From Adineta ricciae (Eukaryota > Rotifera > Eurotatoria > Adinetida > Adinetidae), in contig CAJNOJ010000356.1 of NCBI GenBank assembly GCA_905250025.1, positions 30,446-94,445 on the forward strand: a stretch of DNA of 64,000 nucleotides, given 5' to 3'. Of the stretch, positions 21,559-51,160 are shown piece by piece. How positions within the stretch are numbered: the first letter of the stretch is position 1; each line of letters starts with the position of its first letter. Made by a program: the position numbers and the translations under genes. Under the pieces are notes generated by a model. That model saw only the letters and a program-made list of their open reading frames with translations, was not told the DNA's origin and did not search any database.

Positions 21559-22572
21559 TTATTGACGAGGAGCAATACGTCGATTAACACGGTTTTTCGT
21601 GAAGATTTTAGCTAATTCACGACGAAAGAAAACACTCACTAATGTGTAGATGTAAAACGAAAATATTTTGTCGAATAAGTTAAGCCAGACAGCTAAGTTG
21701 AGAAGAAGGCTTTCTATAGCAATTTGTTTGCTACTTTTCACAAAAAAAGCCGAAACGCTTGAATAAATTCTGAACATGAATAGTGGAAGTGAGAAGAAAA
21801 TTAAAATGATCACTTGTACACAGAGCATAAGTAAGACGTTATTGTTCTGATTGTTTCGACCGTTTGGATTAATTTGATTGTTGTTTCTAGTATAGCCACC
21901 ACTATTCGCGTTGGTTCTCACAGTCGCCTTTTCTATTGGCACTACTAGCTGTTGTTTAGCAATACGAATATGATTGTATGTACCGATACCAAAAACAAAC
22001 ATAGATATAGGTGGTCCAATTGCTTGCAAGATGAAAGCAAATACTGAATTAATAATGTTACATGTATTGTTTATTGGATTGCACAATGCTCCACCAGGTT
22101 GATTGGCGTCATAACAATAGAATATTTGTGAATATAGAAAAATAATAATGCTAATAACAATGATGATTACACGATATGCATTTTTCATATTGCTATATCG
22201 TCGTACGTCAGCATTACGTGATGATGAACAGAATCGATCAATACAACAACAGGTCATAAGCCAATTCGATAGAGCGATTGATATATTGTAAATAAATATT
22301 TGCAATTTGCACAAAACTGACGAATAATAAGCTGGTGTGATATTGAAGCCAATCAACATGCGTAACACGACGTATGTAGAGATATTCAACATGTTGACTA
22401 TAGAAGCAAACAACATGAAAGGAATGCATGGCGATATTGCTCGTAAAGTGCGCCGTGTAAAAAGGAAAATATTCAGCACATTACCCGCCGTTCCTAAGAC
22501 AATATAAATGATACCCATTGATATAGCCAGCTTGTTCCTAATCTCATTGATAAGTAAAACTGTCGAAGACAT
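21559..22572 (-). CDS. 7TM receptor, tandem copy 1
   Basis: A single-exon gene for 337 residues with seven hydrophobic segments. It starts MSSTVLLINEIRNKLAISMG; TM1 carries GNVLNIFLF, TM3 ends CCIDRFCSSSRNADVRRYS (DRF in place of DRY), and TM7 lacks NPxxY. It is a divergent rhodopsin-like receptor of the kind strongly expanded in bdelloids. The third inner loop is Asn-rich. The copy at 24869-25882 differs at about 32 of 337 positions, many of them in this loop, and is equally open, so both are probably functional. Ligand unknown. Confidence 0.82.
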   Translation of the reverse strand: MSSTVLLINEIRNKLAISMGIIYIVLGTAGNVLNIFLFTRRTLRAISPCIPFMLFASIVNMLNISTYVVLRMLIGFNITPAYYSSVLCKLQIFIYNISIALSNWLMTCCCIDRFCSSSRNADVRRYSNMKNAYRVIIIVISIIIFLYSQIFYCYDANQPGGALCNPINNTCNIINSVFAFILQAIGPPISMFVFGIGTYNHIRIAKQQLVVPIEKATVRTNANSGGYTRNNNQINPNGRNNQNNNVLLMLCVQVIILIFFSLPLFMFRIYSSVSAFFVKSSKQIAIESLLLNLAVWLNLFDKIFSFYIYTLVSVFFRRELAKIFTKNRVNRRIAPRQ

Positions 22573-24433
22573 GGTGACAATGACAGTGCTGCATTGAAAC
22601 GACAGTTAATTAAACGAGATCACGATATTAAATTGTCGTTCATCTCTTTTTCTCTAGCTACAATGAAAACAAAAAAGACTTCGGTCGAAACCGAGAAGTG
22701 TTTCGCGCACTTAAAAAGGATTTCATAGGAAATAAAGGCCTTGTTAAAAATGTTTTCCAGGCCAAATGGATCTTTTGAGGGATTTCGCACTTTGCAACGA
22801 ATTCTAAACCGTTTAAGGGCTTGGTAGGAAAACTACGAAACGTTCAAGAAAGATAGCGCAGCTTGTAATAACTCTAATGAAAGCCTCTTAGGTTTATACG
22901 AAACATTCAAAGGGGTTTTGATTTCATTGCAAAAATAGTTTCGTATAAAGGGGTCTTGGTGTGAGAGTGTGAAGGTGAGGGTAGATGAAAATTTTTTTAT
23001 GATTCGAATCTATAGAGCTCACCGAATTGTAGCTGGAATAAGTGTCGAAATGGTAGCTGGAAATAAAGAAACGAATCCGTGCGTGTTTTTCTGAAATTTT
23101 CATGTTTGTCTGGTTTTTCTGGCAATTTTCCTGCATTTTTATGGACAAGGAAGGATATTTCCCGGAATTTTATCCTTGGAATAGATTGAGTTCACCGAGT
23201 TCCACTTGGAACAAATGTGATAAGAGTTGGAATACACTCGTGTTCGAATCCGTTCAAGAAAAGGTCGAATTCATGTCCAAAATATCTTACATCGGATCTC
23301 TATCCTTTCATACATACTACGTCGTATAGAAAAGTATCGGTAATATGGTAATTACTCACTTCTAAAAGATAATATACTTTTTCTGCCGAGAATCAATACT
23401 TTTATTTCACTAAACTCGATGTTTTTACACATTCGACTTCACTTAAAATAAGTTCTAACAGGCGGTTTTCTAATAAGATCAATCTAGCTGATACACAAAT
23501 TCAAATAAGCAGACTTATCAAGGTACGCACTCATGGTATCGTGTCACTCGTCAAACAAACAAAATGTTCTAAATCATCTCTGGTAGAAGCGAAAACGATG
23601 CTTATCAACACTAACATAGGATCAGGGTGCATCTTTCTTAAGAAAAAAACTGCAAAGTACGGCTGATAAGTCAGGTATGTCATTTCTTTTTCGAGTGTTT
23701 TACGAAGTATTTCACGAGGACACGCGGATGAATGCATCGAAAAGATGCCTAACTATCCGTCAAGTTCCCACTTTTCTCTCTTTTTTCTCAGCTATTCACA
23801 TTACCAAACAACATCTCGTTTTACCGCTCCTCAACTCCGACCGACTTGTGCAGAAACAGAAAAACATTCTATAAACATCCGGCACTGGATTCTCGTGCGG
23901 ATAGAAATCAGATTTTTAATGCACCCATCTGTGAACTCCTCCTGTACTGAATTTTCGGGCCAGTTTCGACCCTCTCACAAATCTTCACTAAAAATCGAGA
24001 AGTCAGAGACAGGAATAGTTAATTAGCTGTCGGATTAAAATTCCAAGTTCAATCCTCACTCAAAATGGAGAAGTCAGAGCTTAGAGCGGGCATCGAGATT
24101 CTGGATTAAAAATCGCATTTTGAGCTTCTCCCAAATTCGCTCCTCATGATTGGACATTGGTTTTCGTTAATTCTGGGATGTGGTAGAGGGATTAATGCTG
24201 AGGTTGTATTCGGATTGCTAGTGGCAGATGATAGTTCATGTGTAATAAGGTGTTTTAGGGCGGAAAGATATCACTTTAGATCGGATTTTCGGGGAAGTCA
24301 TCATAACGGTTTGGAAATGATCGGAACTTCTGGGAATAGGCTGGGTTCAATCACTAGGATTCGGGCGTTGTAGCGTTATGTATATGTATGCTCATCAACT
24401 CATTACCAGTTCATATACGTATGCCTTCTTCCT
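22573..24433. other. Upstream flank of receptor copy 1 and unrelated spacer
   Basis: 22573-23570 matches 25883-26856 and is the shared 5' flank of the receptor pair. The minus ORF at 22924-23148 and plus ORF at 23102-23329 are not kept in both copies. 23570-24433 holds no recognised gene. Confidence 0.6.
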
Positions 24434-24868: not shown

Positions 24869-25882
24869 TTATTGACGAGGAGCAATACGTCGATTAGCAC
24901 GGCTTTTCGTGAAGATTTTAGCTAATTCGCGACGAAAAAAAACACTCACTAATGTGTAGAGGTAAAACGAAAATATTTTGTCAAATAAGTTAAGCCACAC
25001 AGCTAAGTTGAGAAGAAGGCTTTCTAGAGCAACTTGTTTGCTGCTTTTGACAAAATAAGCTGAAATGCTTGAATAAATTCTGAACATGAGTAGTGGAAGC
25101 GAGAAGAAAATTAAAATGATCACTTGCACACAGAGCATAAGTAAGACGTTATTGATCCGATTGTTTCGACCGTTTTGATTAATTTGATTGTTGTTTCTGC
25201 TATGGCCATCACTATTCGCGTTGGTTCTCGCAGTCGCCATTTCTATTGGTACTACTCGCTGTTGTTTAGCAATACGAATATGATTATATGTACCGATACC
25301 AAAAACAAACATAGATATAGGTGGTCCAATTGCTTGCAAGACGAAAGAAAATACCGAATTAATAATGTTACATGTATTGTTTATTGGATTGCACGGTGAC
25401 CCACCAGGTTGATTAGCGTCATAACAATAGAATATTTGTGAATAAAGAAGAATAATAATGCTAATAACAATAACGATAATACGATATGCATTTTTCATAT
25501 TGCTATATTGTCGTACGTCAGCATTACGTGATGATGAACAGAATCGATCAATACAACAAAAGGTCATAAGCCAATCTGATAGCGCGATTGATATATTGTA
25601 AATAAATATTTGCAATTTGCACAAAACTGACGAATAATAAGCTGGTGTGATATTGAAGCCAATCAACATACGTAACACGACGTATGTAGAGATATTCAAC
25701 ATGTTGACTATAGAAGCAACTAACATGAAAGGAATGCATGGTGATATTGTTTGTAAAGTGTGCCGTGTGAAAAGGAAAATATTCAGCACATTACCCACTG
25801 TTCCTAAGACAATATAAATGATACCCATTGATATAGCCAGCTTGTTCCTAATCTCATTGATAAGTAAAACTGTCGAAGACAT
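24869..25882 (-). CDS. 7TM receptor, tandem copy 2
   Basis: 337 residues, single exon, colinear with the receptor at 21559-22572. The start at ATG 25882 matches copy 1; the frame is open further upstream only through a non-ATG start. It keeps CCIDRF after TM3 and the Asn-rich third inner loop. Differences from copy 1 cluster in that loop (for example EKATVRTNANSGGY versus EMATARTNANSDGH), where G-protein coupling is usually set. The copy is bounded by the GGATCCG repeat downstream and a 34-N gap upstream, inside a 167-bp inverted repeat. Confidence 0.82.
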   Translation of the reverse strand: MSSTVLLINEIRNKLAISMGIIYIVLGTVGNVLNIFLFTRHTLQTISPCIPFMLVASIVNMLNISTYVVLRMLIGFNITPAYYSSVLCKLQIFIYNISIALSDWLMTFCCIDRFCSSSRNADVRQYSNMKNAYRIIVIVISIIILLYSQIFYCYDANQPGGSPCNPINNTCNIINSVFSFVLQAIGPPISMFVFGIGTYNHIRIAKQQRVVPIEMATARTNANSDGHSRNNNQINQNGRNNRINNVLLMLCVQVIILIFFSLPLLMFRIYSSISAYFVKSSKQVALESLLLNLAVWLNLFDKIFSFYLYTLVSVFFRRELAKIFTKSRANRRIAPRQ

Positions 25883-26856
25883 GGTGACCATGACAGTGGT
25901 GCATTGAAACGACAGTAAAATAAATGTGATCACGATATTAAGTTGTTCTTCATCTCATTTTCGCTAGCTACACTGAAAACAAAAAAGACTTTGATCGAAA
26001 CCAAGAAGTGTTTCGCGCACTTAAAGAGAATTTCATAGGAAAGAAAGGCCTTGTTAAAATGTTTTCCAAATGGAGCTTTTGAGTGATTTCGGACTTTGCA
26101 GGGCTTGATAGGAAAACTTCGAAACGTTCAAGAAAGATAGCGCAGCTCATAACAACTCTAATGAAAACATCTTAGGTTTACACGAAACCTTCAAAGGGAT
26201 TTTGATTTCGTTACAAAAATAGTTTCGTATAAAGGAGTCTTAGTGTGAAGGTGTGAAGGTGAGGCTCGATGAAAATTTTTTTTTGATTGGAATCGATAGA
26301 GTTCGTCGAATTGTATCTGGAATAAGTGTTGAAATGGTAGCTGGAAGTAAAGAAACGAATCCGTGCGTGTCTTGCTGAGATTTTCATGTTTGTCTGCTTT
26401 ATTTTGGCAATTTTCTTGCATTTCTTATGGATAAGGAAGAATATTTCTCGGAATTTTATCCTTGGAATAGATTGACCGCGCCGAGTTCCATTTGGAAAAA
26501 AAGGTGATCAGAGTTGGAATACACTCGTGTTCGCATCCGTTCAAGAAAAGGTCGAATCCATGTCCAAAATGTCTTACATCGGATCTCTACCCTTTCATAT
26601 ATACTATGTCCTATACAAAAGTATCGGTAATATGGTAATTACTCACTTCTAAAAGATAATATACTTTTTCTGTCGAGAATCAATACGTTCATTTCACTAA
26701 ACTCGATGTTTTTACACATTCGATTTCATTTAAAATAAGTTTCAACAGGCCGTTTTCTAACACGACCAATCTAGCTGATACACAAATTCAAATAAGCGGA
26801 CTTATCAAGGACGTACTCATGGCTTCGTGTCACTCGTCAAACAAACAAAATGTTCT
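25883..26856. repeat. Upstream flank of receptor copy 2
   Basis: Matches 22573-23570 with small indels up to the N run, so the paralogous block is about 2 kb long and includes the promoter region of each receptor. No gene seen in it. Confidence 0.8.
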
Positions 26857-28888: not shown

Positions 28889-29986
28889 CTACAAAAACAG
28901 AGATGATTGTAGTCTTTTTAGATAGCTTACAAGAAGAAAAAGACAGTAATCATTTGTACTATGTTCGTCGTCTTCTGCAAATTCGAAAAAAACGATTCTT
29001 TGAAAGTTTTTCGGTACGAATTCGACGGAAGGACAAATACGATAAAGATAAGCATCGACGGGGTGAATGAAATAAAACATCCGCCAACATATAGCCACAC
29101 ATGACTAGATACATCTACGCAACCAGATAACAAAGAGATAACTAGACGTGGTGCTGATAGAAAAAGTAAATTTGTCGGACTGATGACGAGTTGTGTATGT
29201 TCATTCCATTGTTCACGAATATGTTGCCCATAAGTCTGTCGCTTATGAATTTCTGCTCGTCGTCATGCACTTCCAATAATAATGAACATTGCAGAGGAAA
29301 GATTTGCAATGAATGGGCCGAGTAGATGAACGAAGAGAATAGCTATGTTATAATCCTGAACTGATTGCGGATGAGTAGTTACACACCATGTATAACTGAC
29401 TATCACGGTTTCTTCTGTAGGATTTTTCCTTTATTTCATGCACGAATATTCCGCGGTAGAGTAGCTCATGAATGATCGTGCACATAATCACAATCGGTAA
29501 GATGAAGATGATCCATTGAGCAAAACGTTTGCGCTTCTCTTTATCGAAACTAATTCCTCTGTAAATACTCATCGCACGTTCAATTGCTACACATGCGCAC
29601 AGCCAGGCGTCCCAGTAAAAGAAAAATTTGAGAAGAGACTCAATCCACTTGCAACCACCTGCGAGAACATACTGGAGAATAGATGTATTCATCTGTGTGA
29701 CGACAACAAACCAAAACTTGATCGTAAACATTGTAATTGTTAACAGAGAAGTCACTGACGATGCAAAAAGATACAATCCACATCCAACTTGTTGCGAAAT
29801 TGCATCGTGAAAATTTAAAATCGAACAAACGCTGCTGATGACACCCGCAAGAAACATAATTATACGGTCAAAGCGCCACTGATTTTGATCAGAAGTGGTT
29901 GATAGTGTATGCCCGCATTTCGATTGACTTCCAAACGTAAAATATCGTCGAGAGTGAGACCAATACTTTTCACTTGAACATTGCAC
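28889..29986 (-). pseudogene. 7TM part of the NHL receptor gene, segment A
   Basis: The minus strand codes a rhodopsin-like 7TM domain of a bdelloid type: DAWLCACVAIERAMSIYRG around TM3, RFAQWIIFILPIVIM in TM4, and at 29100-28930 GGCFISFTPSMLIFIVFVLP for TM7. Three lesions are visible. There are 2 extra bases at about 29862 compared with segment B (frameshift in TM1). A frameshift lies near 29420, after HEIKEK. A TGA lies near 29269, in IIIGSA-stop-RRAEIHKRQ. The frameshift near 29420 is also in segment B. The link to the exon ending at 30119 does not splice in frame. So the membrane part is dead although the ectodomain exons are open. Confidence 0.7.
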
Positions 29987-30118
29987 GGACCATCGACATA
30001 AAAAGAAGTAGAATTATGTTAACTAAGCAAATTGATGAAAGGAAAACAATCAAAGAGTACTCTATTTAAAGAAAGAACAAAACATGTGTACGTTCTGTCT
30101 TCGTAGGTAGTTACTTAC

Positions 30119-31528
30119 TAAAGCGTTGTAAAGTAACATTTGACGGCAAGTAATGTGTATATGATGTCTGACCGAAGATAAACGGTATGTTTTATTTCGC
30201 CACCATTGGAACATATATGTTCATCGATTGAAATTAAATTTTTCTTTGGATTCAGCGGATCGAAATGATTTTCGTAGATGTAAATGTTTATATCCGAGCT
30301 CTGCATAATGGAAAAATCATAGTATGTATCGGCGAATACAGTTAATTCTATGGTTTCGTAGTAATAATTTACACGAGTACACTCTTTGTCATACTTTTGA
30401 TTATCTGTTGTTAGTTCTGATGAATACGTCGAGTAAATGACTGGTGAGGCATCTATTCAGAAACAATGTTAGGTTTGGTTTTTCAGTACTCGTGAAGATT
30501 ACGTGGAGTACTCACCCGTGCGTTGAAAATAGACATGACTTTTGCCAAAAATTTTGAACGAGAAATCCCACATTTGGTCCAGCATACATACGGTCACAAC
30601 AAATACGTAGCGAATATCGCTAAGAAGCTCAAGAGTAATTGTACGCGATTCATAACGTTCACAAGTATCTTTTCGTTTCAGTAAATATCCAAATGGAATA
30701 AGTGCATAAAAATCATGCTCATAGATATAAAGTTTCATACCCATCTCCGTAATTTCATCTATCATAATAGTGTAGAAGCCACTTTCGATGACATTTACAT
30801 GTATTGCTTCATAATATTCTCTGGGAACTGCTTCACAATCAATAGGAGAATATTTTTTGCTGTCGTGTGTCAGTGAGGAAGTATATGTTGATTCAATGAA
30901 TTGTTCAATATCTAATCAACACAAAGAGTATTGTGAACATACATACTCTAAGTCATGTTTTCAATCTATTTAGTGTTAAAAATGACTGTTCAACGTGTCT
31001 GAATTTTAGGAATAAATACAAAACGCAAAAGAAGCACATAGCTTGATTCGCATTTTTGTAACAAAATTTATAGAATGATCAAGTAACACTTTATTTCTTA
31101 GTTGCACGCTTCATCAAATACAGTATGTTACTTACCGATGTGTTTCAGCTGAACTGTAGGTGATCCGAATACTGTGATTGAGAACGGACCTGTTACAAAT
31201 GGATTGTATGTTGTTACAACCAATATGTACTTCGCATAAGCATGAAGTTCAAGTGTAAATTCGAATTGATCGTTACTGTAGCGTTCGCCATTCCATGCGA
31301 TCAGATCGCGACTTGTAGGATCAAATGAGTGAAAACGATCTTTGTAGACATAGCCGTATAGCCCGATACTGCTGACACTAGTGATGATGTAAAAACCATT
31401 TTGACTTACAAACATTTCAATGACTTCGTAGAAAAAAGCGGAGGGATAAAATGGAGCGCGTGCAAATCTCTCATGATCTTCTGTTAATGTTGATGAAAAG
31501 GTTGCTTGAATCGTTGTTGGGACATCGA
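30119..31528 (-). CDS. Three beta-type repeat exons of the NHL receptor gene, segment A
   Basis: Exons 31528-31136, 30911-30516 and 30452-30119 are all phase 1 at the start, with GT-AG borders, and code about 131, 132 and 111 residues. Each has the same plan: a start like TFSSTLTEDHERF, an FYEVIE or YYEAIH strand, GLYGYVYKDRFHSFDP or its equivalent, and an end like YILVVTTYNPFVTGPFSITV. The VTGPFSI signature is one I associate with bdelloid NHL receptors. They are likely extracellular beta-sandwich domains between the NHL propeller and the membrane part; ligand unknown. All three are open here but carry nonsense changes in segment B. Confidence 0.72.
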
Positions 31529-31764
31529 CTAAATAGAAACAAAATGGTTTGTACTTGAATCATGAATAGCAACAATTTTGTCACAGTTATTATCGTTGTT
31601 ACAGAGCTTTTCCTAAGATTACTCAAAATATTAGTCGAACAATAAACTTACAATCCATGAATTCTACTTTTAATTTAGAAAATGATTTCAACTCTTCAAT
31701 GGTAGTTAAAGTAAAAGAAATGTGTGTTGAAAATACTATTCCAATTGGAATATCGGATTCTTAC

Positions 31765-32812
31765 CACAAGAATCTTCGAGCAAATCGAATTTTTGGATTC
31801 GGCTATTTCCTTTATCAACAACAAACAGGTTCCCATAGATATCAAAGCGGAGTCTCTGTGGTGATTTCAATTGATGAGATCGTGTGCCGCCTCCATCACA
31901 CCCAACTAAACATCGAAAACCATTGGGTCCAGACGCAACGATACGATTGTTTCCGTCATCGGAGATGAAAAGATAATTGTAAGCGTCTAATATAATTGAG
32001 TGTGGTTGAGAGAGTCCAATTGTAATATCTGATGAGCTTTGTCCTGCAACTGTTTCTCCAACAGTTTCATCTAACCGAAAAAGCTGAATCCGATCATTCA
32101 TAGAATCCGCGACATACAGATCGCTATCAGTATCAACAAAGATCCCTTCGGGGTCATCTAGTTCAATATCACTGGAACCGTCACGGCCTGTACCAGTTAC
32201 AACTACCATTTCCATCTCATCGTCGAGCGGTGTCTTCCAAACTATATCTTCCAAAACTGACGCACAATATAAATAACCGTTAGAAGTAACGAAAAGACTA
32301 GCGCATTGTGTTTTAACTTCCATGATATTACCAGAATTATTCGCACTTGACACCCATTTGAGGATTTTATTCTCAGATATATCAACACCAACATAAACTT
32401 CACCAATGTTTGAAACAAATATCGATGGAGACGCCGACCACCTTGTTCTCAGAATCTTCGTAGCATGGATACTATTCGGATTCCAAATTAAAATTTGATG
32501 TTTTTCAGAAGGAGCGACATAGATTGTATTGTTTCTATCGATAAATATGTCGGCACCCTTCGTTCCAAGTAAATCGCTATTGACAAAAGTGGTTGCAGTT
32601 TGGCTCCATTTGACTGTTGAACACAGTGCCGGTTGATTGGACGAAAGAGCTACACAACAAAAACAAGTGATCTGATGAGAAATTTCATAAGTTTCTCTAA
32701 ACAGCCGTCGAGTGACAGGCACTCTCGAATTGAAATGGTTACCTGATATTCTTTCATTGAAGACAATCAGTAAAAAGATCGTGAGCACAAAAAAACGACG
32801 ATTTAATAACAT
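31765..32812 (-). CDS. Signal peptide and NHL propeller exons of the receptor gene, segment A
   Basis: Exon 1 (32812-32743) is a signal peptide, MLLNRRFFVLTIFLLIVFNE, then a phase 1 intron of 93 bp. Exon 2 (32649-31765) carries NHL-type blades: ADIFIDRNNTIYVA, PEGIFVDTDSDLYVADSMND, PHSIILDAYNYLFISDDGNN and LRFDIYGNLFVVDKGNSRIQ. NHL propellers bind proteins, RNA or sugars; outside the cell a binding role is likely. It splices in phase 1 to the beta-repeat exons, so with the 7TM part at 28.9-30 kb it forms one gene of NHL + beta repeats + 7TM. The frame is intact. Plus-strand ORFs across it (31657-31968, 32712-32894) are shadows. Confidence 0.8.
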
Positions 32813-33364
32813 ATCAAATGAGCTTAGAACATTAAAACCGTCTTCTGTTCGTGCTCTCTCCAGTATCTATGTCTCTCTTGCTTTTCATGATTAATACAAG
32901 TAAATACCTCTTTTTATCACGATTCACTTTGATGACGTTATTTCTTTTCTCCTCGCATTCACGATAACTCTATAATCAACATCGATTCATCATTCATTCA
33001 TGACAACGCTATTGAAGATGACTGAGCGTAAGCATAACAGAAATGATTAAAACTTTTCACACATTCAAGAAAATACTCCATCCGTCGATCTTGAAAATTC
33101 ATAGAATAATTCAATTGTCTTTCTTTTTATCGTAGCTATATTATGAGATATAGGCAAATGTCAATTCCAAAATAAGAATCATTTCTTTAATGTATGTATG
33201 TGAAACACAATAGAATACGTAACTTAGAACGACTTCAATCTAGTTATTTTGTTCCTTTCTTTTCATTTTATAGGAAAGAATGAATATGTTATATTCATTA
33301 AAACATACAGAGGAAATTTAAACAAAATATATACATTTCATTATCTTTTCATCAACTCTTGTAA
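32813..33364. other. 5' flank of the NHL receptor, segment A
   Basis: Contains no ORF of note. It partly matches the flank in segment B (51160-51350), where about 300 bp are missing. Probably promoter. Confidence 0.5.
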
Positions 33365-33671
33365 AGTCCTTATTAGTATTGGAGCATAATGAATCCAAGT
33401 CTTGTATCTAAATGTGAAGAAGACGAAAAGGTTCGGTTACTTATTTAGAATATTTGGATTTATGATGAACAGATAACGATCAACTAAGAGATGAGCATTG
33501 AGAAACAAGAGAGTTGTATTTAGACTGTAGTTGAAAGGAATCCAGAACTTGCAGAAACGCCAACAAGATCAAACAAACAAGTCGATTGAAAGCGACTTTG
33601 ATGTATGATGATGTTGTTGAATCGATGACTGCTGACTCGTTCATTTGGATCAGATAAATCAAACTGATCAT
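33365..33671 (-). pseudogene. Relic of a 7TM receptor, segment A
   Basis: Fragments matching the three-exon receptor at 16500-17621: the start of exon 3 (YKTWIHYA-like, near 33400), part of exon 2 (VDRYLFII region, 33460-33560) and the start of exon 1 (YLIQMNESAVIDS, near 33650). Exon 1 is joined directly into exon 2 with TM1 and the exon 2 start deleted. A fuller relic exists in segment B at 51341-51665. Confidence 0.75.
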
Positions 33672-34842
33672 TGCAATATGGCATTAACTACCTAAGAAAA
33701 GGGGATTGTAACTTCGGTCTTCGTTCTTATGTATGAAATATATGTTTTCTAACGCGTTTCGAAGCTCAAGAACTAAGAAGCTAGTAGTTATCAACGGAAA
33801 ACTTAATTGATTGTGCATATAATTTATTCCGATGAATCTGTGAGGATTTACATGAAAACGAAACTCATTGAATTGGGACAACTGAGTGATTGGTTAGAGA
33901 AAGGACACGAGTTCATTCTGGATGTCGCCGATCTGTCTGCATTCTCTGCCGTTTTTAATGATTTACATATTATATTTAGCTTTCGATTGAAAGCATTCAT
34001 ATCTCGTCGAGATATTCAATAATATGATTCAAAAGGATTTTAAATTATCTATTTGATTTCGTTCGCATGATAAATTCTGAAGCCTAATGAACTGTTCACG
34101 GACGCGTTTCTGCATATCTGAGACAATGCATTCTAGTTTTTCGGAAAAAATGTTTGTAAAACTGGATTTTTCTCTGCATGGCATCTAACTCTTTATGATC
34201 TCATTCCGCTGAGGACAGTTGCAGTTCCGGTCAATGGATGAGAATAATTATGTATAAAAATCGATTGGAGTGACTGCAAACGCGCCCTCCATGTGACAGC
34301 CAGTGATCCGTGCACGTTGGATAAGAAGAAAAATAAAAGAAAAGAAAAAATCAAAATATCTGCATGCATCAGCAGTTTTCATCGACGAATGTGTAGAACA
34401 GGTAGATAAAGAACGAAAAATATGAAATAAACAAGCAGCAAACGTGCGCACATTTGGAGCGTAAAATATATGATTGTTTAATAGAAGTGAGTCTTTTAAA
34501 GTAAAACTTGACGTGTAAATTGGTTGACATTGATGTCTAGTGCAGTTTCGAATTATTTAAGGTTAAAATTTAATATACTGAGCGATTGGGAATGTTTTGC
34601 AGATGGAAAAACGTGACAGATTTTTCGAAAAGAATGATAAACAATCGCTTTTTCCTGTCCGAGTTGAGTGTAGTCGCAATTTTATGATAAATCGAGCATT
34701 TTCTCAAAAAGTCACCTTATGCTTATAGTCAACGTAAAAATTTCCCCTTCGGACGCTACTTATTACGATTTTCTGTCGTTTAAGAGCTCCGATCAAATCC
34801 ATCAACACATACTTGCATGTCTTTATACTCTCTAGGTGTTCA
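33672..34842. other. Spacer and upstream flank of the VC0807-like gene, segment A
   Basis: A plus frame at 33807-34022 contains QLSDWLEKGHEFILDVADLS, which reads like real protein but is broken in segment B; it may be an exon relic. The rest is upstream flank, similar in both segments. Confidence 0.45.
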
Positions 34843-35736
34843 ATGACTTCAAATTATGAACGATTTGAATCCGATTCTGTTCCAGAAAAACAATTACCCT
34901 CCCAAGACAAAGTTTCCACATGGAACACGTTCAAACACCACATTCCTCGTATTCTGATTACGGCTTTCATCGATATGTTTGTGCCACTTATAATTTATTT
35001 TCTTCTTGAAAATCGCATTCCATCCGTGTACGCTCTTTTACTCGCTGGTGCTCCGCCTTTCCTCATGGTTACATACAAAGCTATCCAGGAACGTTCGTTT
35101 GATGCAATCGGCTTTCTTGTCTGTGCTGCTTTTTTACTAGCAGCTGTGTCCGCCGTATTACTCGATGATCCTTACATACTCTTATTTGAAAAGTCATTTC
35201 TCACTGGCATAGGAGTAGTAGCATTTTCCATCACATTGATTCCATTTCGATGTCGCTATTCCAGTAAATATCAATGGCGACCATTAGTGTATTATTTCTA
35301 TCATGATTTGATACCAATAAATCGAACAGAATTCGGATTACCCGATAGTGTGTTTGATGACGACCAATACACAGAGCGTACGGAACTCAGAAATGAAATG
35401 ACAAGCAAAGGAATATCTCGTGCACGAGAAGCACGTTTAGTTTATGCATGGCTGTACGAGCATTGCTCATCGTTCCGTATTTCATGTTATTTCATGACAA
35501 CCGTCTGGGCAGTGGCCTTTTTGAGCGACTTTATCATCCGACTTTCTCTCTATGTTGCAAACACATCAATAAACACGATGTACGTATGGGGGCAAATTAC
35601 ATTCTGTATCGCTTGTGCTCTATGCGCTGTTCTACAGATACTGACGATGACCATTGAACGGAAATATACATTAGCGTACATTGAGCGATGGAAAATTGAA
35701 CATCTGAATGCTCAGCAATCGCCGTCAACCAGGTAA
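34843..35736 (+). CDS. VC0807-like integral membrane protein, segment A
   Basis: 297 residues, no intron. I chose ATG 34843 (MTSNYERFESDSV); the frame opens slightly upstream only with a non-ATG codon. The middle has hydrophobic segments ITAFIDMFVPLIIYFLL, VYALLLAGAPPFLMV and FDAIGFLVCAAFLLAAVSAV, then FEKSFLTGIGVVAFSITLIP. This pattern resembles the VC0807 family of membrane proteins known mainly from bacteria and fungi, whose role is unknown. Two more helices follow an Arg/Glu-rich loop near residues 165-200. The segment B copy differs at 21 of 297 positions and is equally open, which suggests both are kept by selection. Foreign origin is possible. Confidence 0.6.
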   Translation: MTSNYERFESDSVPEKQLPSQDKVSTWNTFKHHIPRILITAFIDMFVPLIIYFLLENRIPSVYALLLAGAPPFLMVTYKAIQERSFDAIGFLVCAAFLLAAVSAVLLDDPYILLFEKSFLTGIGVVAFSITLIPFRCRYSSKYQWRPLVYYFYHDLIPINRTEFGLPDSVFDDDQYTERTELRNEMTSKGISRAREARLVYAWLYEHCSSFRISCYFMTTVWAVAFLSDFIIRLSLYVANTSINTMYVWGQITFCIACALCAVLQILTMTIERKYTLAYIERWKIEHLNAQQSPSTR

Positions 35737-35869
35737 CAAGATCATTATCGGAAAAAAATGTTTTTTTTTATACATTGAAATATCTACAATAAATCAGTAT
35801 GAGCTGTTGCTTCACTTACGCAGTTGCCAATGTAGAATCCTTTAGTTTTTAGCATATCATGCGACAGTA

Positions 35870-38460
35870 ACGACCACCATACACCAGTAATTCTTCGTAA
35901 GTATCTTGCTTAACAGTCGTTCCGTCGTATACAATGCAGCATCATATCTATTTTTTGAATTTTTGGTAAACGATGAGCGATTGTAACGGATGTTCGACTC
36001 TGTTGAGCACAATCAAGCGCTTCTTGAACCAATCTTTTGTTTTTCAGTGTCCACAACGCTTGTGACTAAAAGGAAGTTAATCGTACAGATAGTATCAGTT
36101 GCGCATTTGTGAGCCTACCTATATCAAGAAGTAACACTTTCGGATTTCGCGTCAATGCTCTTGCGATGGTTAGACACGAAGTACATCAACTGTCAAAAAA
36201 GAGTTTACCTCTCATCTATCTCACCAATTCATTGTTTTTGACGGCCGAATATCTGAGTACTCTTTGGGTTGCACATATTGTCTCGTATACCTTCAAGTCA
36301 GAAGAAACAAAGCGGCAACGTACATGAGGAAGACTTTGAATAAAATCATGAATATTCGCGTTCTTAGCTGCTTGGATGATTTCATTCAGTGGAATACCTG
36401 TTCAATTGTTAATCCCATAAGCAATATTTTCACGAATTGTCCTGTCAAATAAAATAGGTTCTTGCGCTAGTTGAACGTTTACCACTTGCCACGGTCATTT
36501 TTGTCCGGATTATAACAAATACTGGCTCTACTGCCCCATTGAGCAAAGCTGCAACACATCCCTTACCTTCATCAAGGAGTAAAATTGTCGAATCCCGAAT
36601 GAGTACTCGAGCGATAGCTAACTATAAAGCAAATTGATAGACAATATCGTATCTCGCTTCACTGATCAGTTCTGTGTTTCTGTCCACTAGACAGTGGAGT
36701 TTCATACTTCTGCATAGAACTTAGATCCAGTGAGTCAAACAGGCGAGAAGTTTTCGAAAACTTACATCAAGCAAAGTCATGATAAAATCATGTGCATTTG
36801 CCATTTTCGCTGTTTGTATTCTTTCTTCTTCAGTCACTGAACGCGTCCCAACAAAATATTTTGTCGAATAGTTGTATGCAACAAAACCGGTTCCTGACTA
36901 ACAACACCGATATGTTTTCGAAGCCATTTCAAATTGTATTCAGTGATGTCCTTGTCATCGATTAGTATGGAACCTGAGTTTAGATCATAAATCTTTGTAA
37001 TGATTGCACACATGTGGATTTTTCTGAGCCCGAGCAGGCCGCGAGAGTAACGGTTCGACAAGGTGAACTTCAAATAATAGATTTGAGAGAGGTGGAACGT
37101 TTCGTAGTTATGGATAAGCACAATTGACATCAGAAAAATGTATATGACCAATAAAATCAGCGCTTGTTTCGCTTATAATCATTGAATCTGTAATGATCGT
37201 CGATGGTTGCAAAAGATGTACTTTAATGTTTGTGGATTAATCTTTTCGGGACGGGGTTCTTTTTTAACAGACCAAATAACGAAACACGATACTAATCAAA
37301 GTCGCTAGATTTTCATTTTTAGTTCATTATTTTCATCTGTCGAGAGACTAATACGGCACATAAGCTCATTAGTGGTATCGAAGGCTAGAGGAATATCAGC
37401 TAGAATAATAGAAAAATAATATACAGTTAACGATTGGAATGATCTCAAGTCAGTGGCCATTATAGTGGCCGCCCGTCCCGAATGGGTTAAAAAAATGTAA
37501 CTTACTTCATTGACAACTTTCTGTCCTCGATAAGCAGCTGCTTGTGTCTGAATTAATGCTTGAAACTGTGGAGTGATATATTTTAGCGTAATTATAGCAT
37601 TTAAAATCGAGAAGAAAATCTGAAAATAATTCACTTGCAGTATTCGCAAAATCTTCTCTCCGTATGTACCGCACACACAATACCAATCATGTACTGATCT
37701 TCTCGAATAAATTTCGCACCATACTAACATCCTTTAAATAAACTTAAATAACGAACAAACCTACTTTTAACGGTATTACTTAATCCAAATAAACGATATG
37801 CAAGCAGCAATTCCAGATCCATTATAAAACTATCAATGATATTTTTCCTAATTGCGGTTCCCTTGAATTTCTCAAGTGACTGTTCGTAACCAAAAAAAAC
37901 ACGGAATTGATCACTTTTCGCTTTCGAAATACTTGTTATACAAGCGATGGATTTCTTTTTCTTAGTCGTTGTATGACAGAACAGTACGAAACGAACTTAT
38001 CACTTCTTTCGCGATATTTCCAGCGCTTCCATATGCTTTCGAGTCATTCCAGAGCTAGATCGTAAGTATTTGTACGTGTCCTAGCTCTGATTCATCCACA
38101 TTGGGTTTCGCGACAATCTGAAGACAAACAATGACAATGAATGAAGTGAGAATGATTGATAATGTAGACAATACCATCAATGCTAGTTTCCATCCTTTGA
38201 CGAAATCTAGGTCGTTACAAATTTTCCTTGCTCTTGTGCACAGAAAAGATCAACGTACCGATTACAATAGAGAACATCGGTAAAAAGTGGTATATCGAAA
38301 CTGAAAAGGAGAGATATAGAAAAGTAACATGGGTAAATACAATTAGTTGATACCGATTGGAGAATTTTTACAGGTTCACTTGATTACCTTTTCTTCCAAC
38401 ACCATCGTCTGATCGGTAATCGGTTTTCGCTCCTATCGTTCGGTACAACAATATGCGTCA
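35870..38460 (-). pseudogene. ABCB (P-glycoprotein-type) transporter relic, segment A
   Basis: Minus-strand pieces follow the order of an ABCB protein. There is a membrane piece with EKILRILQVNYFQIFF near 37640 and QALIQTQAAAYRGQKVV near 37520. The first nucleotide-binding domain piece, near 36850-37010, has GSILIDDKDITEYNLKWLRK and VVSQEPVLL. AIARVLIRDSTILLLDE (Walker B) lies near 36600. Second-domain pieces are EPILFD and [10 protein letters not shown] near 36340-36460, IARALTRNPKVLLLD near 36150, and the H-loop TIAHRLPKIQK near 35960. The Walker A site is destroyed and the signature motif is missing. It is dead in both segments. Confidence 0.82.
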
Positions 38461-38986
38461 CGAGAAATTCCCACAGCAGTAACGGCACTCATATTCATCT
38501 TACAGATATACGAGTATCACATAGTACAAGAATAGTACGTTGATCGAAGTCATTGATTCGTGAGATGACATCAACAAATTAAAATCTTGCTAGTACGAGA
38601 CGGTGTTTACTGTTTTGAATGTGACTGCACTCTATACATTTAAAAAGCTCTGAGTACGTAAAAGGGGTAAATTTTATTTAAAATTCAACAGACTAGATTG
38701 ATGGAATAAATCAATGATTAGCGAAGAAGTTTCAATAATGTTTTAGTTTGTATATCCAAAGCAGTGTTTTATGGAGAATTCGTAGTACGCCTATCAAAGC
38801 AAAAGAGGGAGCTCGTTTTACGCGTATGTTAACATGTACATTGTTTCACGCTGCGCACTGCAATCGAACGACTTGCTTCTTTTACACTCAATAAATCATG
38901 TTAGCTTAAAAACTTCGAGAGTTAAAACAATTATTTCGAATGAATCGTTTACATTGAAAAATATTATTCACGAATATCAATTACGT
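38461..38986. other. Spacer between receptor and ABC relic, segment A
   Basis: No gene; matches 55980-56516 in segment B. Plus ORF 38834-39052 overlaps the receptor 3' end and is not kept open in B. Confidence 0.5.
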
Positions 38987-39985
38987 CTATTGCAAACTTG
39001 TGCGCGGACCAGGAGTCATCTCCATATGAGATGGATGTTGCTGATGTTCTGAAGTTGCAGTCTGAAGTGACATGATATGGTTTTTTCGAAAACATTTCAA
39101 AAGTAGATTTTTAAAAACTCGTCGTACTTCGCTTGACATGCATAAATAAATGTAAAAAGTACACACATAATTGCAATGAAATAGCAAGAGAATCACTTGA
39201 CCAAAAAAATCTTCCAGTGCCAAACGAAAGCCATCTTTTGGAATACGACTCGTTAAATCAAGATAGATACCTTGAAAACCGAATGGGACTCCGGATATAC
39301 CCAAGACAATCAATTGCGGAATGAGCATTCGACGAACTTGTTTCATCAAATGATCTTGTTGACGTTCTCCATGAAATGAACGAAGATTTTTCGCTGTACC
39401 ATATGTGAAAAGCATAATGATGATCAATGGACCCACACTGTACACAAATGGCGTTAGAAAGTAAGTATTAAATTGAGTAAATGCTCCTGGCCGTAGTACA
39501 CAAACACCATCGATGATTTCACTAACAAAAATAATCGGTATATAAGCAAGTGACCAGAAAATAACGGTGCCAACGATCACCCATCGAACAAAGTGAATGG
39601 AACTCCAACGGTGTCGAAAATTTGCATTGCGAGATGTGTTAACATATTGATCAAATGCTGCCCAACATGGAAACGAAATAGCCGTAACCGTTGTCATGTA
39701 CAACAAATAGTTATGTTCACGACAAGCAACGAGATTCGTATCCAAAAAGCGTAAACCAAATCCATTAACGAGAATGCTTTGGGAATAAATCATTGGGAGA
39801 TGAATTCCTGTCATTGTTGCACCGGCTAATAGATATGTTATAGTAGCATTACGCCAGAATAAAGGCTGTCTGGTAAAGATGACAACAGTTAAAATAGCTC
39901 CAATAATTCCTAGAGTAATAAACGGTATAGCGACAACATAATTAAGCCATCTCGTGATGATTCTCAGTGTTGTTTCATCCAACAT
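38987..39985 (-). CDS. 7TM receptor, segment A
   Basis: 332 residues, single exon, starting MLDETTLRIITRWLNYVVAI. Seven hydrophobic segments are visible; TM3 ends with FDQYVNTSRNANFRHRW (DQY in place of DRY), and TM5 holds TPFVYSVGPLIIIMLF. TM7 lacks NPxxY. It is of the divergent bdelloid rhodopsin-like type. The segment B copy (56517-57515) differs at 18 of 332 positions and is also open. It lies upstream of, and on the same strand as, the ABC relic. Ligand unknown. Plus ORF 39133-39324 is a shadow. Confidence 0.82.
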   Translation of the reverse strand: MLDETTLRIITRWLNYVVAIPFITLGIIGAILTVVIFTRQPLFWRNATITYLLAGATMTGIHLPMIYSQSILVNGFGLRFLDTNLVACREHNYLLYMTTVTAISFPCWAAFDQYVNTSRNANFRHRWSSIHFVRWVIVGTVIFWSLAYIPIIFVSEIIDGVCVLRPGAFTQFNTYFLTPFVYSVGPLIIIMLFTYGTAKNLRSFHGERQQDHLMKQVRRMLIPQLIVLGISGVPFGFQGIYLDLTSRIPKDGFRLALEDFFGQVILLLFHCNYVCTFYIYLCMSSEVRRVFKNLLLKCFRKNHIMSLQTATSEHQQHPSHMEMTPGPRTSLQ

Positions 39986-40333
39986 CTTAAATGGTTCTTC
40001 TTTATCTTCTAGATGTTTTCATCAATAACTTTTATACTCGTAATTTTCCTGTAAAAAGAAAACTGATAAAGTGTTGATAATTATTATGGCACATTGAAGG
40101 TTTTACTCGCATTACTCTAATTCATTTGTTTTTACAACGCAATAAATATGCATTTCACTTTCCACTGATGCATATCGATTCTTTTTGAAAGGTTAATTAA
40201 TAAAATTCCTTTTCATGAAAAAACTGTTGTTTGAAACTAATGTCTTAACTAGAGAACATTTTTAGTTGAAAAAATTAAAATTCTATTACGGATTCCAAGC
40301 TTTCCGGTTTTTTCTTGAAACGCCTATGGTGTA

Positions 40334-40364
<31 letters not shown>

Positions 40365-41693
40365 CAAAAATGTCGAGAAAACGCGTAGAATTCCTTAAAA
40401 ATCTTTTTTTAGTTTTCAAAAATGTCAACAAAGTCTAGAAACATATTTTCTGTGAAACATCAGACCAGTTCTATTGAAAATTTTGAAGGCTCAGGCATTT
40501 TCTCTAAACATCTCAATAGCTATATTTCATCAACGTAGACCCTATTCAATTAAATTGAATAATTTCTGTTTTCCTCTACCCGTGGTATCCAACAACTTCC
40601 ATGACAGTATCCTCATAGAACGAAATCGTACTAACGGCTCCGTTCTAATAAATAGAACGATTTGCTGTTATCTCGTCTACCAAAAATGAGACCATGGAAT
40701 TGAAAGAGACATTACTATCGAAATGATAGATTTCCCATTTTTCTATGAGGGCACCTTTAGATATAGTCCTATTCACAAATATTATGATTTTACACGAATG
40801 AGTTTACGAGGTGAATCATTAGGTATCAGAAAATGCCGACTACTCGTTAGTGCTTCTTTACTTTTTCAATCTAATTCAATGTCATGAGGAAAAAATTGTG
40901 AACATCCGATCCCATGTGCAATTATTTTTAGTATAAACGCATTTTAAACGCAAAGCACAAATGCGTCTTTGAGATGCGCTCAACCGCGATTCTTTTCCAA
41001 ATGTGTTTCATATTCTTTTTTTCCAAAAATACATTCTATCGCTACAGCTTCGACCTGCGCCACCATTATTCTCTTCTGATGAGCATCTTTTCCAACATAA
41101 TTCGAATAGGATATCTATTTTATTTTTATACATACGTTTAGATTGTTCGACGATTGAGACAAGAACATAAGACCTTTCAATTACAAGTCTACTGACTTCG
41201 ACCATTGCACTACATCGATTTATCTAGGAATAAATGAGATAATCCGTACTGTCAATGCTTTTCTAAGGACAAAATTGAGATTTTTTCAATTGAATAAAGA
41301 AGATAAATCAACTTTGTTCTTATTCTTATTTAAGACGAATAATTCGATACATTGATGAAAGCTTTATTTGTTGAGTGAAAAATTAGTTGAATATTAATTA
41401 TGAATAATCACGATTCTCAGCATGATTTTGATGAATAAGATATTTGTTATTTCTATTCCTTATGATTCTATAATGAGTGATTTTTAATAAACACACCAAA
41501 TTTTGTTCATATTGTCTATTACTTGTTATTTTCCATTATCTTTCACTTATATCAATTCTGTTTTGCAATTGAAAAAAAAATTTCGATCCTTTTTATAAAT
41601 TATGATCAGAACAGGTCACAGTTTCGTTAAAAAAAGATAGGATTTAGTAAACTATCTTAACTATAAAATTTTTAAAAGAAAGTATCATTGATC
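39986..41693. other. 5' flank of the segment A receptor and spacer
   Basis: Matches segment B as far as about 40830, then unrelated sequence. A pure (TA)n run at about 40336-40361 is shortened in B (near 57866). No gene supported. Confidence 0.55.
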
Positions 41694-46600: not shown

Positions 46601-47294
46601 TATGGTACCTTTTCTTCGAGCATTAGGAATGAAGATTGGTAATCGTTGTGAAGTGTCGACGGCGATAGGAATGGTTCATTCATTAGTTGAAATCGATGAT
46701 GAATGTTTTATCGCTGATAATGTTCTTCTTTGTGATCCATACATTCGATTCGGGCAGATGCATTTACAACGGACGACGATTGGTAAACGTGTTTTCATTG
46801 GAAATTCCGCAATCGTTCCAGACGGAATACAAATACCAAATGAATGTTTAATTGGATGCATGTCTCTCGTTGCTGATGGCATGGAAGCAAAACAATCGTG
46901 TCTAGGTTCACCAGCATTTATCTTACCAAATTGAGAACAAGTTACCGATGATATTCCAGAAAGTTTGACATACCATCCTAATACTTCTATGATTGTTCAG
47001 CGTTTTTGTATTGACACGGTACGTGTATTCTTACCGCGAATTATCGTTGTTTTAGAAATCGGTATAGCGATCCAAATTTTCAATCACTTAAACGAATCAG
47101 TTGATTATGGCTATTGCTTATTTCTCTTACCTCTTTTGTACTTCGCTGTACTTGCAATACCATCTACATTGCTTTGTATTGCTCTGAAATGGTTACTGGT
47201 GGGAAAATATCGATTATGTAAAAGAATTCCTACGACCATACGGTTTCGACCTTTTTCAAGGGTCAATCCTCAGGTAGGACTAAATACTGCATAG
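43664..47294 (+). pseudogene. Pls/PosA-type non-ribosomal peptide synthetase with in-frame stops
   Basis: Exons 43664-44512 and 44574-47294 join in phase 0 across a 61-bp intron. In order come an adenylation domain (TSGSTGKPKA, SYGPTEIT, YRTGD, GFRMELDEIE, PSGKIDRKAL), a carrier domain with DLGGHSLIAA (Ser for phosphopantetheine), then several membrane helices and hexapeptide-type repeats with KIGNRCEVS and GKRVFIGNSAIVPDG. This is the layout of bacterial epsilon-poly-lysine synthetase-type enzymes, which have no condensation domain of the usual kind and end in a membrane tail. Three in-frame stops break it: TGA 43679-43681, TAG 43772-43774, TGA 46932-46934. The tail is also cut short at KWLLVGKYRLCKRIP, where a repeat begins. 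The A and carrier domains themselves are open. Likely transferred from bacteria and now decayed, unless stops are sequence errors. Confidence 0.8.
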
Positions 47295-47775: not shown

Positions 47776-47776
47776 C
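47776..47776. other. Assembly joint (single N)
   Basis: Joins the palindrome to the start of segment B inside the 7TM part of the second NHL receptor; that receptor's TM6-TM7 end is missing here. Confidence 0.9.
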
Positions 47777-47803
47777 NGTAGATGAACGAAGAGAATAGCT
47801 ATG

Positions 47804-48427
47804 TTATAATCCTGAACTGATTGCGGATGAGTAGTTACACACCATGTATAACTGACTATCACGGTTTCTTCTGTAGGATTTTTCCTTTATTTCATGCATG
47901 AATATTCCGCGGTAGAGTAGCTCATGAGTGATCGTGCCCATAATCACAATCGGTAAGATGAAGATGATCCATTGAGCAAAACGTTTGCGTTTCTCTTTAT
48001 CGAAACTCATTCCTCTGTAAATACTCATCGCACGTTCAATTGCTACACATGCGCACAGCCAGGCGTCCCAATAAAAGAAAAATTTGAGAAGAGACTCAAT
48101 CCACTTACAGCCACCTGCGAGAACATACTGGAGAATAGATGTACTCATCTGTGTGACGATAACAAGCCAAAACTTGATTGTAAACATTGTAGTCGTTAAC
48201 AGAGAAGGCACTGACGATGCAAGATGATACAATCCACATCCAACTTGTTGCGAACTTGCATTGTGAAAATTTAAAATCGAACAAACGCTGCTGATGACAC
48301 CCGCAAGAAGCATAATTACGGTCAAAGCGCCACTGATTTTGATCAGAAGTGATTGATAGTGTATGGTCGCATTCCGATTGACCTCCAAACGTAACATATC
48401 GTCGAGAGTGAGACCAATACTTTTCAC
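47804..48427 (-). pseudogene. 7TM part of the NHL receptor, segment B (cut by gap)
   Basis: Starts reading at KSIGLTLDDMLRLEVNRNAT and stays open through TM1-TM5, without the 2-bp insertion seen in A. The frame is lost after HEIKEK at the same place as in A; a one-base shift there would read on as ETVIVSYTWCVTTHPQSVQ. The joint at 47776 removes TM6-TM7. So TM1-TM4 are better preserved here than in A. Confidence 0.7.
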
Positions 48428-48569
48428 TTGAACATTGCACGGACCATCGACATAACAATAAGTAGAATTATGTTAACTAAGCTAATCGATGAAAGGAAAA
48501 CAATCAAAGAGTACTCTATTTAAAGAAAGAACAAAACATGTGTACGTTCTGTCTTCGTAGGTAGTTACT

Positions 48570-51160
48570 TACTAAAGCGTGGCAAAGTAACATTTGACGG
48601 CAAGTAATGTGTATATGATGTCTGACCAAAGATAAACGGTATGTTTTATTTCGCCATCATTGGAACATATACCGTATGCTCATCGACTGAAATTAAATTT
48701 TTCTTTGGATTCAGCAGATCGAAATGGTTTTTGTAGATGTAAATGTTTATATCCGAGTTCTGCATAATGGAAAAATCATAGTATGTATCAGCGAATACAG
48801 TCAATTCTATAGTTTCCTAGTAATAATTCACACGAGTACACTCTTTGTCATACTTTTGATTATCTGTTATTAGTTCTGATGAATACGTCAAGTAAATGAC
48901 TGGTGAGATATCTATTCAGGAACAATGTTAGGCTTGGTTTTTCAGTGCTCGTGAAGATTATGTGGAGTACTCACCCGTGCGTTGAAAATAGACATGACTT
49001 TTGCCAAAAGTTTTGAACGAGAAATCCCACATTTGGTCCAGCTTGCATACGGTCACAACGAATACGTAGCGAGTATCGCTAAGAAGCTCAAGAGTAATTG
49101 TACGCTATTCATAACGTTTACAAGTATTTTTTCGTTTAAGTAAACATCCAAATGGAATGAGTGCATAAAAATCATGCTCATAGATATAAAGTCTCATGCC
49201 CATCTCCGTAATTTCATCTATCATAATAGTGTAAAAGCCACTTTCGATGACACCTACTTGTACTGCTTCATAGTATTCTCTGGGATCTGCTTCACAATCA
49301 ATAGGAGAATATTTTTTGCTGTCGTGTGTCAGTGTGGAAGTATATGTTGATTCAATGAATTGTTCAATATTTAATCAATCCAAAGAGTATTGTGAACCTA
49401 CTACTCTAAGTCATGTTTTCAATCTATTTTGTGTTAAAAATGACTGCTTAACGTGTCCGAAATTTAGGGATAAATAGAAAGTGCAAAGGAAGTGCATAGC
49501 TTGACTCGCATTTCTGTAACAAAATTTATAGAACGATCAAGTAACACTTTATTTCTACTGTATGTCATCCGAATACTGTGATTGAGAACGGACCTGTTAC
49601 AAATGGATTGTATGTTGTTATAACCAATATGTACTTCGTATAGACATGAAGTTCAAGTGTAAATTCGAATCGATCGTTACTGCAGCGTTCGCGGCTTGTC
49701 GGATCAAACGGGTGAAAACGATCTTTGTAGACATAGCCGTATAGCTCGATATTGCTGACACCAATTAAGATGTAAAAACCATTTTGACTTACAAATATTT
49801 CAATGGCTTCGTAGAAAAAAGCGGAGGAATAAAATGGAGCGTGTGCAAATCTCCCATGATCTTCTGTTAAAAATGTCGATGAAAAAGTTGCCCGAATCGT
49901 TGTTGGAACATCGACTAAATAAAAGCAAAATGATTTGTACTTGAATAATGAATATCAACAATTTTGTCACAGTTATTCTCATGTGTTATAGAGCTTTTCC
50001 TAAGATTACTCAAAATATTAGTCCAAGAATAAACTTACAGTCCATTAATTCTATTTTCCATTTAAGAAATGATTTCAACTCTTCAGTGGCAGTCAACGTA
50101 AAAGAAATGTATGTTGAAAATACTATTCCAATTGAAATATTGGGTTCTTACCACAAGAATCTTCGAGCAAATCGAATTTTTGGATTCGGCTATTTCCTTT
50201 ATCAACAACAAACAAGTTCCCATAGATATCAAAGCGGAATCTCTGTGGTGATTTCAATTGATGAGATCGTGTACCGCCTCCATCACATCCAACTAAACAT
50301 CGAAAGCCATTAAGTCCAGACGCAACGATACGATTGTTTCCGCCATCGGGGATGAAAAGATAATTGTAAGCGTCTAATATAACTGAATGTGGTTGAGAGA
50401 GTCCAATTGTAATATCTGATGAGCTTTGTCCTGCAACTGTTTCATCTAACCGAAAAAGCTGAATCCGCGACATACAGATCGCAATCAGTATCAACAAAGA
50501 TCCCTTCAGGGTCATCTAGTTCAATGTCACTGGAACCGTCACGACCTGTACCAGCCACAACCATCATTTCCATCTCATTGTCGACCGGTGTCTTCCAAAC
50601 TATATCTTCCAAAACTGACGAACAATATAAATAACCGCTAGAAGCAACGAAAAGACTAGCACATTGTGTTTTAACTTCCATAATGTTACCAGAACTATTC
50701 GCACTTGACACCCATTTGAGAACTTTCTTCTCAGATATATTAACATCAACATAGACTTCACCAATGTTTGAAACAAATATCGATGGAGACACCGACCACT
50801 TTGTTCTCAGAATCTTCGTAGCATGGATACTATTCGGATTCCAAATTAGAATTTGATGTTTTTGAGAAGGAGCAACATGGATTGTATTGCTTCTATCGAT
50901 AAATATGTCGGCACCCTCTGTTCCAAGTAGATCGCTATTGACAAAAGTGGTTGCAGTTTAGCTCCATTTGACTGAACGAAAGAGCTACACAACGAAAACA
51001 GGTGATCTGGAGAGAAATTTCATAAGTTTTTCCAGACAGCCGTCGAGTGACAGGCGTTCTCGAATTGAAATGGTTACCTGATATGATTTCATTGAAGGCA
51101 ATCAGTAAAAAGATCATGAGCACAAAAAAGAACGACGATTTAATAACATGTCAAAGGAGC
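48570..51160 (-). pseudogene. NHL and beta-repeat exons of the receptor, segment B
   Basis: Same exon plan as 30119-32812 but broken many times. One base is inserted in the signal peptide (near 51130). A deletion of about 20 bp and a TAA (WS-stop-TATTF) lie at the start of the propeller exon (near 50960). A 16-bp deletion in the last-but-one blade falls near 50467. There are stops in the beta repeats at KRYE-stop-R (near 49110) and YY-stop-ET (near 48818). The donor of the first beta-repeat exon is lost by deletion near 49558. Pieces such as PSIFVSNIGEVYVDVNISEK are still clear. Confidence 0.82.

Follow-up and report, generated by a model that had tools for sequence, protein, structure and literature searches.

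Decayed gene copies in Adineta ricciae point to a large family of class A-like seven-transmembrane receptors with NHL and C2-like ectodomain modules

Class A receptors with a large ectodomain are few in kind, and the LGRs (the glycoprotein hormone receptors, and RXFP1/2 with an LDLa module) are the main one; their short stalk before the first transmembrane segment (TM1) acts as an internal agonist. Adhesion G-protein-coupled receptors (class B2) likewise place a large multi-domain ectodomain on a seven-transmembrane (7TM) domain. The NHL beta-propellers of Thin, TRIM71 and teneurin are found in E3 ligases or single-pass teneurins, and are not known to stand ahead of a 7TM. Here we describe a receptor gene of the rotifer Adineta ricciae in which an NHL propeller and three beta-sandwich repeats lead on to a 7TM region. 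The gene was found in a window of 64,000 nucleotides, by which we mean the whole stretch of DNA analysed (assembly GCA_905250025.1, contig CAJNOJ010000356.1, positions 30,446 to 94,445, forward strand). We consider it highly probable that the window contains one member of a large class A-like 7TM receptor family with NHL and C2-like modules, present there twice and decayed in both places.

As in the LGRs, the 7TM is class A-like and stands behind a large modular ectodomain with a short conserved stalk before TM1; unlike in the LGRs, the ectodomain consists of NHL and C2-like sandwiches, and Pfam scans of the window and the ectodomain exons matched no leucine-rich repeat family. The large multi-domain ectodomain also recalls the adhesion receptors, whereas the 7TM matches the Pfam family 7tm_1 and Pfam scans of the exons examined gave no GPS or GAIN match. 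The propeller belongs to the same NHL repeat family as those of Thin, TRIM71 and teneurin. The sandwich repeats share 12-18% identity with the sandwiches of calpain domain III and pre-peptidase C-terminal domains. No paper naming an NHL-repeat-7TM fusion was found among the best 20 matches in open PubMed Central, and predicted-protein databases may hold unremarked examples; looking for NHL in PMC10531068 gave no match.

The less decayed gene, copy 1, runs on the minus strand from 32812 to 28889, with exons for a signal peptide, NHL and repeats R1-R3 followed by a damaged 7TM (Table 1). Reading frames, splice sites and the Pfam NHL match bear out the claim of an earlier note on this DNA that the signal-peptide, NHL and three repeat exons join in frame through phase-1 introns, splice modelling having kept the frame at all three junctions (NHL-R1, R1-R2 and R2-R3). 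The 7TM-like region that it placed after the repeats on the same strand is present downstream of R3. The note had also called the link to the 7TM broken, which agrees with our data: splice modelling of copy 1 found no in-frame R3-to-7TM splice, the frame of the stalk differs from that of TM1, and the 7TM itself is divided between two frames, with another stop. Its statement that each repeat ends in a GPFSI-like strand fits R1 (TGPFSITVFG) and arguably R2 (DFSFKIFG), but not R3, which ends in KCYFTTL and a stop and lacks the last strand; modelled R3 exons in relatives extend beyond this stop. Since the window gene alone cannot show whether the fusion is real, its relatives were examined.

The search space was the organism's own genome (130 Mb in 1033 contigs, the window lying on one contig), and protein searches used one query per domain. 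Scored matches, which are lower bounds, numbered at least 150 for the repeat (309 candidates), at least 150 for the 7TM (384 candidates) and at least 138 for NHL (1300 candidates). The first half of the copy 1 7TM has its best match in copy 2 (91% identity), and the 53 places that rank next match it at 44-68%. The 55 best 7TM matches, two of them the window copies, were picked by E-value irrespective of their neighbours. Among the matches listed, the 9 kb upstream on the same strand contain a repeat in 41 of the 55, NHL in 34 and both in 33. The downstream counterparts of the 41 and 34 are 3 and 4, and an even scatter of matches would predict about 0.3 neighbours for either domain.

Twenty loci selected for coinciding domain matches were extracted, and in 17 of these NHL, R1, R2, R3 and 7TM are collinear; L058 has NHL, two repeats and 7TM, and L056 and L057 have no NHL match. 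Splice models were built for 19 loci (L039-L057, with L058 excluded). Fourteen gave stop-free NHL-R1-R2-R3-7TM frames, two of them containing an N, and L056 and L057 gave stop-free frames without NHL. The NHL part of L041 is partial, with an N, and L053 continues past its 7TM through an N. The 7TM is one single open reading frame (ORF) in all 19 modelled loci, unlike in the window copy. All 75 scored domain junctions are at phase 1, a few of them at weak splice sites, a count that leaves out two phase-0 joins that link neighbouring genes at low scores (L054 and L055) and four unsolved junctions (L043, L047, L055 and, between partial copies, L041). The R3-to-7TM introns were modelled at 50-409 nt with matching phase 1. 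Of 17 other loci with an NHL exon, 15 have a hydrophobic exon with an ATG ahead of it, and L040 and L049 have weak candidates (1.1 and 1.9), in a search biased toward hydrophobic exons and run without a control. The fusion of NHL, repeats and 7TM proposed in the earlier note is thus backed both by the 14 stop-free models and by the best 7TM matches with both domains upstream; the contrary outcome that it had named, that no bdelloid protein combines these parts, did not arise among the gene models, which combine them in the same genome. Judged from the sequences, the layout is real as a gene model, though seen first in a broken copy. An intact gene would encode a signal peptide, NHL, three sandwich modules (two in L058 and six in L059), the stalk and a rhodopsin-like 7TM, with phase-1 boundaries.

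The NHL profile, well above its cutoff in copy 1, matched 13 of 13 relatives at E<=0.01, and a PDB profile search placed the NHL exon with Thin (E 5e-28); the matches listed suggest up to three NHL propellers in some relatives. Structure prediction of one repeat exon, which had been proposed as a check, was run on R1 with an alignment of four window rows and gave a calpain-III/C2-like beta-sandwich. For the 7TM, 7tm_1 is matched at E<=0.1 by 15 of 16 intact exons (best 6.4e-8); against the cutoff of 30.5 bits L039 scores above (31.1) and L059 and L058 below (30.1 and 25.0). The earlier description of the 7TM as rhodopsin-like finds support in the intact relatives; the window fragment alone remains under the Pfam cut-off (E 0.094). 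A cysteine pair, C122 and C219, is invariant in all 16 intact 7TMs; C122 aligns with the cysteine before TM3 of CCR6, and C219 presumably lies in the second extracellular loop. TM3 ends in ER in 15 of the 16 and in GR in L045, aligned to the DR of CCR6, and the Y of the E/DR(Y) motif is not kept. A structure prediction of the window 7TM fragment had a pLDDT (predicted local distance difference test) of 43 and was not used, and comparison of the 7TM alignment with viral contigs found no relatives.

The 7TM exon begins with a stalk motif, C-x2-G-x2-C followed by GLTLDDIL, and then enters TM1. This pattern, defined after inspecting the sequences, is present in 21 of 22 compared proteins, L051 being the one that deviates. 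The 21 include three relatives of another kind, L060, L061 and L062, whose 7TMs are 40-47% identical to that of the window and which share the related 7TM and stalk but carry a different ectodomain, long and within one ORF with the 7TM in L060 and L062. L060 (contig C171, 212800-217900) is a single ORF of 1567 amino acids with a weakly EGF/LDLa-like ectodomain: EGF scores in L060 and L062 are 20.1 and 18.8 bits (cutoff 21.5), and the LDLa score in L060 is 19.7 bits (cutoff 24.1), all below cut-off. L061 matches 7tm_1 with 37.3 bits and no EGF model, and L062 has no 7tm_1 match at E<=0.01. By eye, an EGF-like cysteine pattern precedes the stalk motif in all three. Because the stalk is common to 7TM relatives with different ectodomains, the ectodomains look interchangeable. 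On one reading, with a presumed direction of change, NHL-repeat exons replaced an EGF-type ectodomain, leaving the last EGF end and the stalk in place. Dozens of 7TM matches, among those listed, fall in ORFs longer than 1000 amino acids.

Several observations weigh against the proposed family of fused receptors. Among the matches listed, with one query per domain, one or both domains are missing upstream of 22 of the 55 best 7TM matches, 14 lacking a repeat match and 21 an NHL match. The R3-to-7TM splice is a gene model at every locus; a junction is broken in 3 of the 19 modelled loci (L043, L047 and L055), and the chosen splice sites are weak at L041 NHL-R1, L046 R3-7TM and L049 R2-R3. L056 and L057 have no NHL match at E<=1e-3, and none is listed before the L059 repeats. 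As to the repeat fold, Pfam Calpain_III is not significant (7 of 48 repeats at E<=0.1, best 0.033), and one repeat member matches Kre9_KNH at 0.0039. In the 7TM, hydropathy gives 6 to 8 membrane segments, and NPxxY was not found in TM7, where an IFVVF-like sequence stands in the place of NAIIY in the melatonin receptor; because of the missing NPxxY we use the term class A-like.

We have considered whether the order of exons reflects two adjacent genes, one for a secreted NHL-repeat protein and one for a separate 7TM receptor, that have remained neighbours. Repeat arrays on contigs C284, C345, C257 and C530 have no 7TM on the same contig among the matches listed and are perhaps other proteins sharing the module, and an NHL exon in the window (59995-58746, minus) leads into a Kelch ORF in place of repeats and 7TM, both of which would suit such an arrangement. 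The short modelled introns between R3 and 7TM with their matching phase, the R3 exons that are stop-free up to the donor, the 7TM exons that begin with a cysteine-containing stalk, and the relatives of the other kind, in which a single ORF spans a long ectodomain, this stalk and the 7TM, all argue against it, and we regard two adjacent genes as improbable. That a misassembly produced the fusion or the lesions is still harder to believe. The region is duplicated, copy 2 ends at an N next to an inverted repeat, and an N and partial duplications occur in L041 and L053; yet genes that have clearly diverged and whose frames are intact show the same order on many contigs, a recurrence that misassembly would not give.

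The condition of the two window copies bears on whether copy 1 still has a function. The stretch 29322-33017 is 90% identical in DNA to 47778-51360, a duplication that goes unnoted in the earlier note. The segmental duplication (29322-40800 and 47778-58306) contains, in each copy, the receptor gene and two further ORFs of 332 and 343 amino acids, and its halves sit either side of a gene resembling nonribosomal peptide synthetases (NRPS). Relative to copy 1, copy 2 has insertions of 2 nt in exon 1 and 5 nt in R3, a 17-nt gap in NHL, and one stop in each of NHL, R1, R2 and R3; its stalk and TM1 share a frame (ORF 47804-48472). Copy 2 breaks off at an N at a 143-nt inverted repeat, 99% complementary (47399-47776), which is either a mobile element or an assembly join. 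Divergence K between the copies is 0.07-0.12 in introns and flank and 0.04-0.08 in exons. The R3 end and the mid-7TM break are common to both copies, and in the non-coding gap between R3 and 7TM 4 of 129 sites differ, against 57 of 578 in four introns, so the 3' end of the gene may have been homogenised between the copies. Because of this possible homogenisation the shared lesions cannot date the loss of the 7TM.

Copy 1 could in principle persist as a functional secreted NHL-repeat protein after loss of the 7TM. Its reading frame runs uninterrupted from the signal peptide to the stop at the end of R3, and across the aligned exons nonsynonymous divergence between the copies (dN 0.044) is lower than synonymous divergence (dS 0.093; 79/1829 against 48/547 sites, Fisher p 1.3e-4, by a simple method that ignores transition bias), though neither copy has a working 7TM. 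However, the last strand of R3 is gone, in copy 2 each of the four ectodomain exons carries a stop and the frame is broken in NHL and in R3, and the 7TM lesions may postdate the duplication via homogenisation, in which case the constraint may predate the loss. We judge a functional secreted product unlikely, somewhat less so than two adjacent genes. The window copies are pseudogenes, unable to make the receptor, and at most copy 1 yields a secreted ectodomain.

A tree of the repeats was built with 17 genes, namely copy 1 and 16 other loci. R1, R2 and R3 form separate clades in it (support 99/96, 100/95 and 99/94), from which we take the three-repeat array to be old and stable in the subfamily of the window gene. 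This subfamily, as far as its sequences tell, changes by substitution and not by exon copying. The earlier note had expected phase-1 symmetry to permit quick change of the ectodomain, which finds no support in the stable clades of this subfamily but has an example in L059, where six repeats fall in one clade (98/99), are 53% identical among themselves and 33% to others, and are followed by phase 1 at all six introns. The median dN/dS between genes rises from 0.27 (7TM) through 0.33 (R1), 0.46 (NHL) and 0.55 (R2) to 0.68 (R3), values that are rough since dS comes close to 1 or exceeds it in many pairs; the 7TM and R1 are thus conserved and NHL, R2 and R3 faster. The ratio reaches 1 in no NHL, R1 or 7TM pair, in 1 of 120 R2 pairs and in 6 of 120 R3 pairs. 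The R1 of the window groups with L051 of subgroup II (100/91), and its R2, R3, NHL and 7TM are nearer subgroup I; a mosaic origin was considered and is not claimed, because the alternatives are not rejected by approximately unbiased (AU) tests (R1, p 0.185; R2, p 0.149).

Table 1. Features of the two receptor gene copies and their flank in the window
Feature	Position	Strand	Evidence
Copy 1 exon 1: start codon and signal peptide MLLNRRFFVLTIFLLIVFNERIS, phase-1 donor	32743..32812	-	reading frames, splice sites
Copy 1 exon 2: NHL beta-propeller	31765..32649	-	Pfam NHL 41 bits, cutoff 20
Copy 1 exon 3: repeat R1, calpain-III/C2-like beta-sandwich by model	31136..31528	-	
Copy 1 exon 4: repeat R2	30516..30911	-	28% identity to R1; inside R2 clade of 17 genes
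Copy 1 exon 5: repeat R3, shortened 3' end, then in-frame stop	30119..30452	-	ORF end ...KCYFTTL, stop
Copy 1 7TM exon start: stalk C-x2-G-x2-C...GLTLDDIL, not in TM1 frame	29868..29989	-	
Copy 1 7TM first half, about TM1-TM4	29351..29867	-	protein search of own genome
Copy 1 7TM last part, about TM6-TM7, other frame, beyond another stop	28927..29262	-	
Copy 2 of receptor gene, more decayed, 7TM ends after about TM4	47778..51149	-	
Flank copied along with receptor gene	33377..40800, second copy about 51353-58306	.	blocks of 85-91% identity

Other genes were noted in the window. The NRPS-like gene between the receptor copies (43775-46934, plus) has an AMP-binding domain, a phosphopantetheine site and, scoring below cut-off, a hexapeptide-like end. 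Two further 7TM genes on the minus strand, 21559-22605 (7tm_1 37.8 bits) and 24869-25954, are duplicates with 91% DNA identity. An ORF with a MAC/perforin domain lies at 6857-7975 (minus, 76 bits), and a single ORF at 60716-63448 (plus) holds an ADP-ribosyltransferase-like domain and then a long TPR array.

If the intact members work as receptors, the propeller would bind an extracellular ligand, the sandwich modules would serve as a rod or second contact, and the stalk would relay binding to a 7TM that would signal via G proteins. A single mRNA, a cell-surface location, ligand binding, stalk coupling and G-protein signalling are each likely by inference, and for the ligand, location and signalling this follows by analogy with the receptor families named above. 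As a tentative and rather doubtful extension, the 7TM with its stalk could be, in this animal lineage, a common output to which unrelated, exchangeable ectodomains are fitted (long EGF/LDLa-like chains, or NHL with two to six C2-like sandwiches), giving perhaps 150 or more receptors with fast-diverging outer parts that sense molecules of non-self or environmental origin and signal via G proteins.

For Adineta vaga, PMC3846280 gives expansions of 7-transmembrane receptors and of NHL proteins as separate ones. If the genome of A. ricciae is akin to that of A. vaga, part of both expansions may be one gene family. The family is apparently undescribed in the open papers searched and apparently a variant among large-ectodomain class A-like receptors. 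A large family joining NHL and C2-like sandwiches to a class A-like 7TM would give these receptors a second design with many members, and with ectodomains apparently replaced at a fixed stalk, evolution's own swaps could be used to test how the class A core is driven by its ectodomain.
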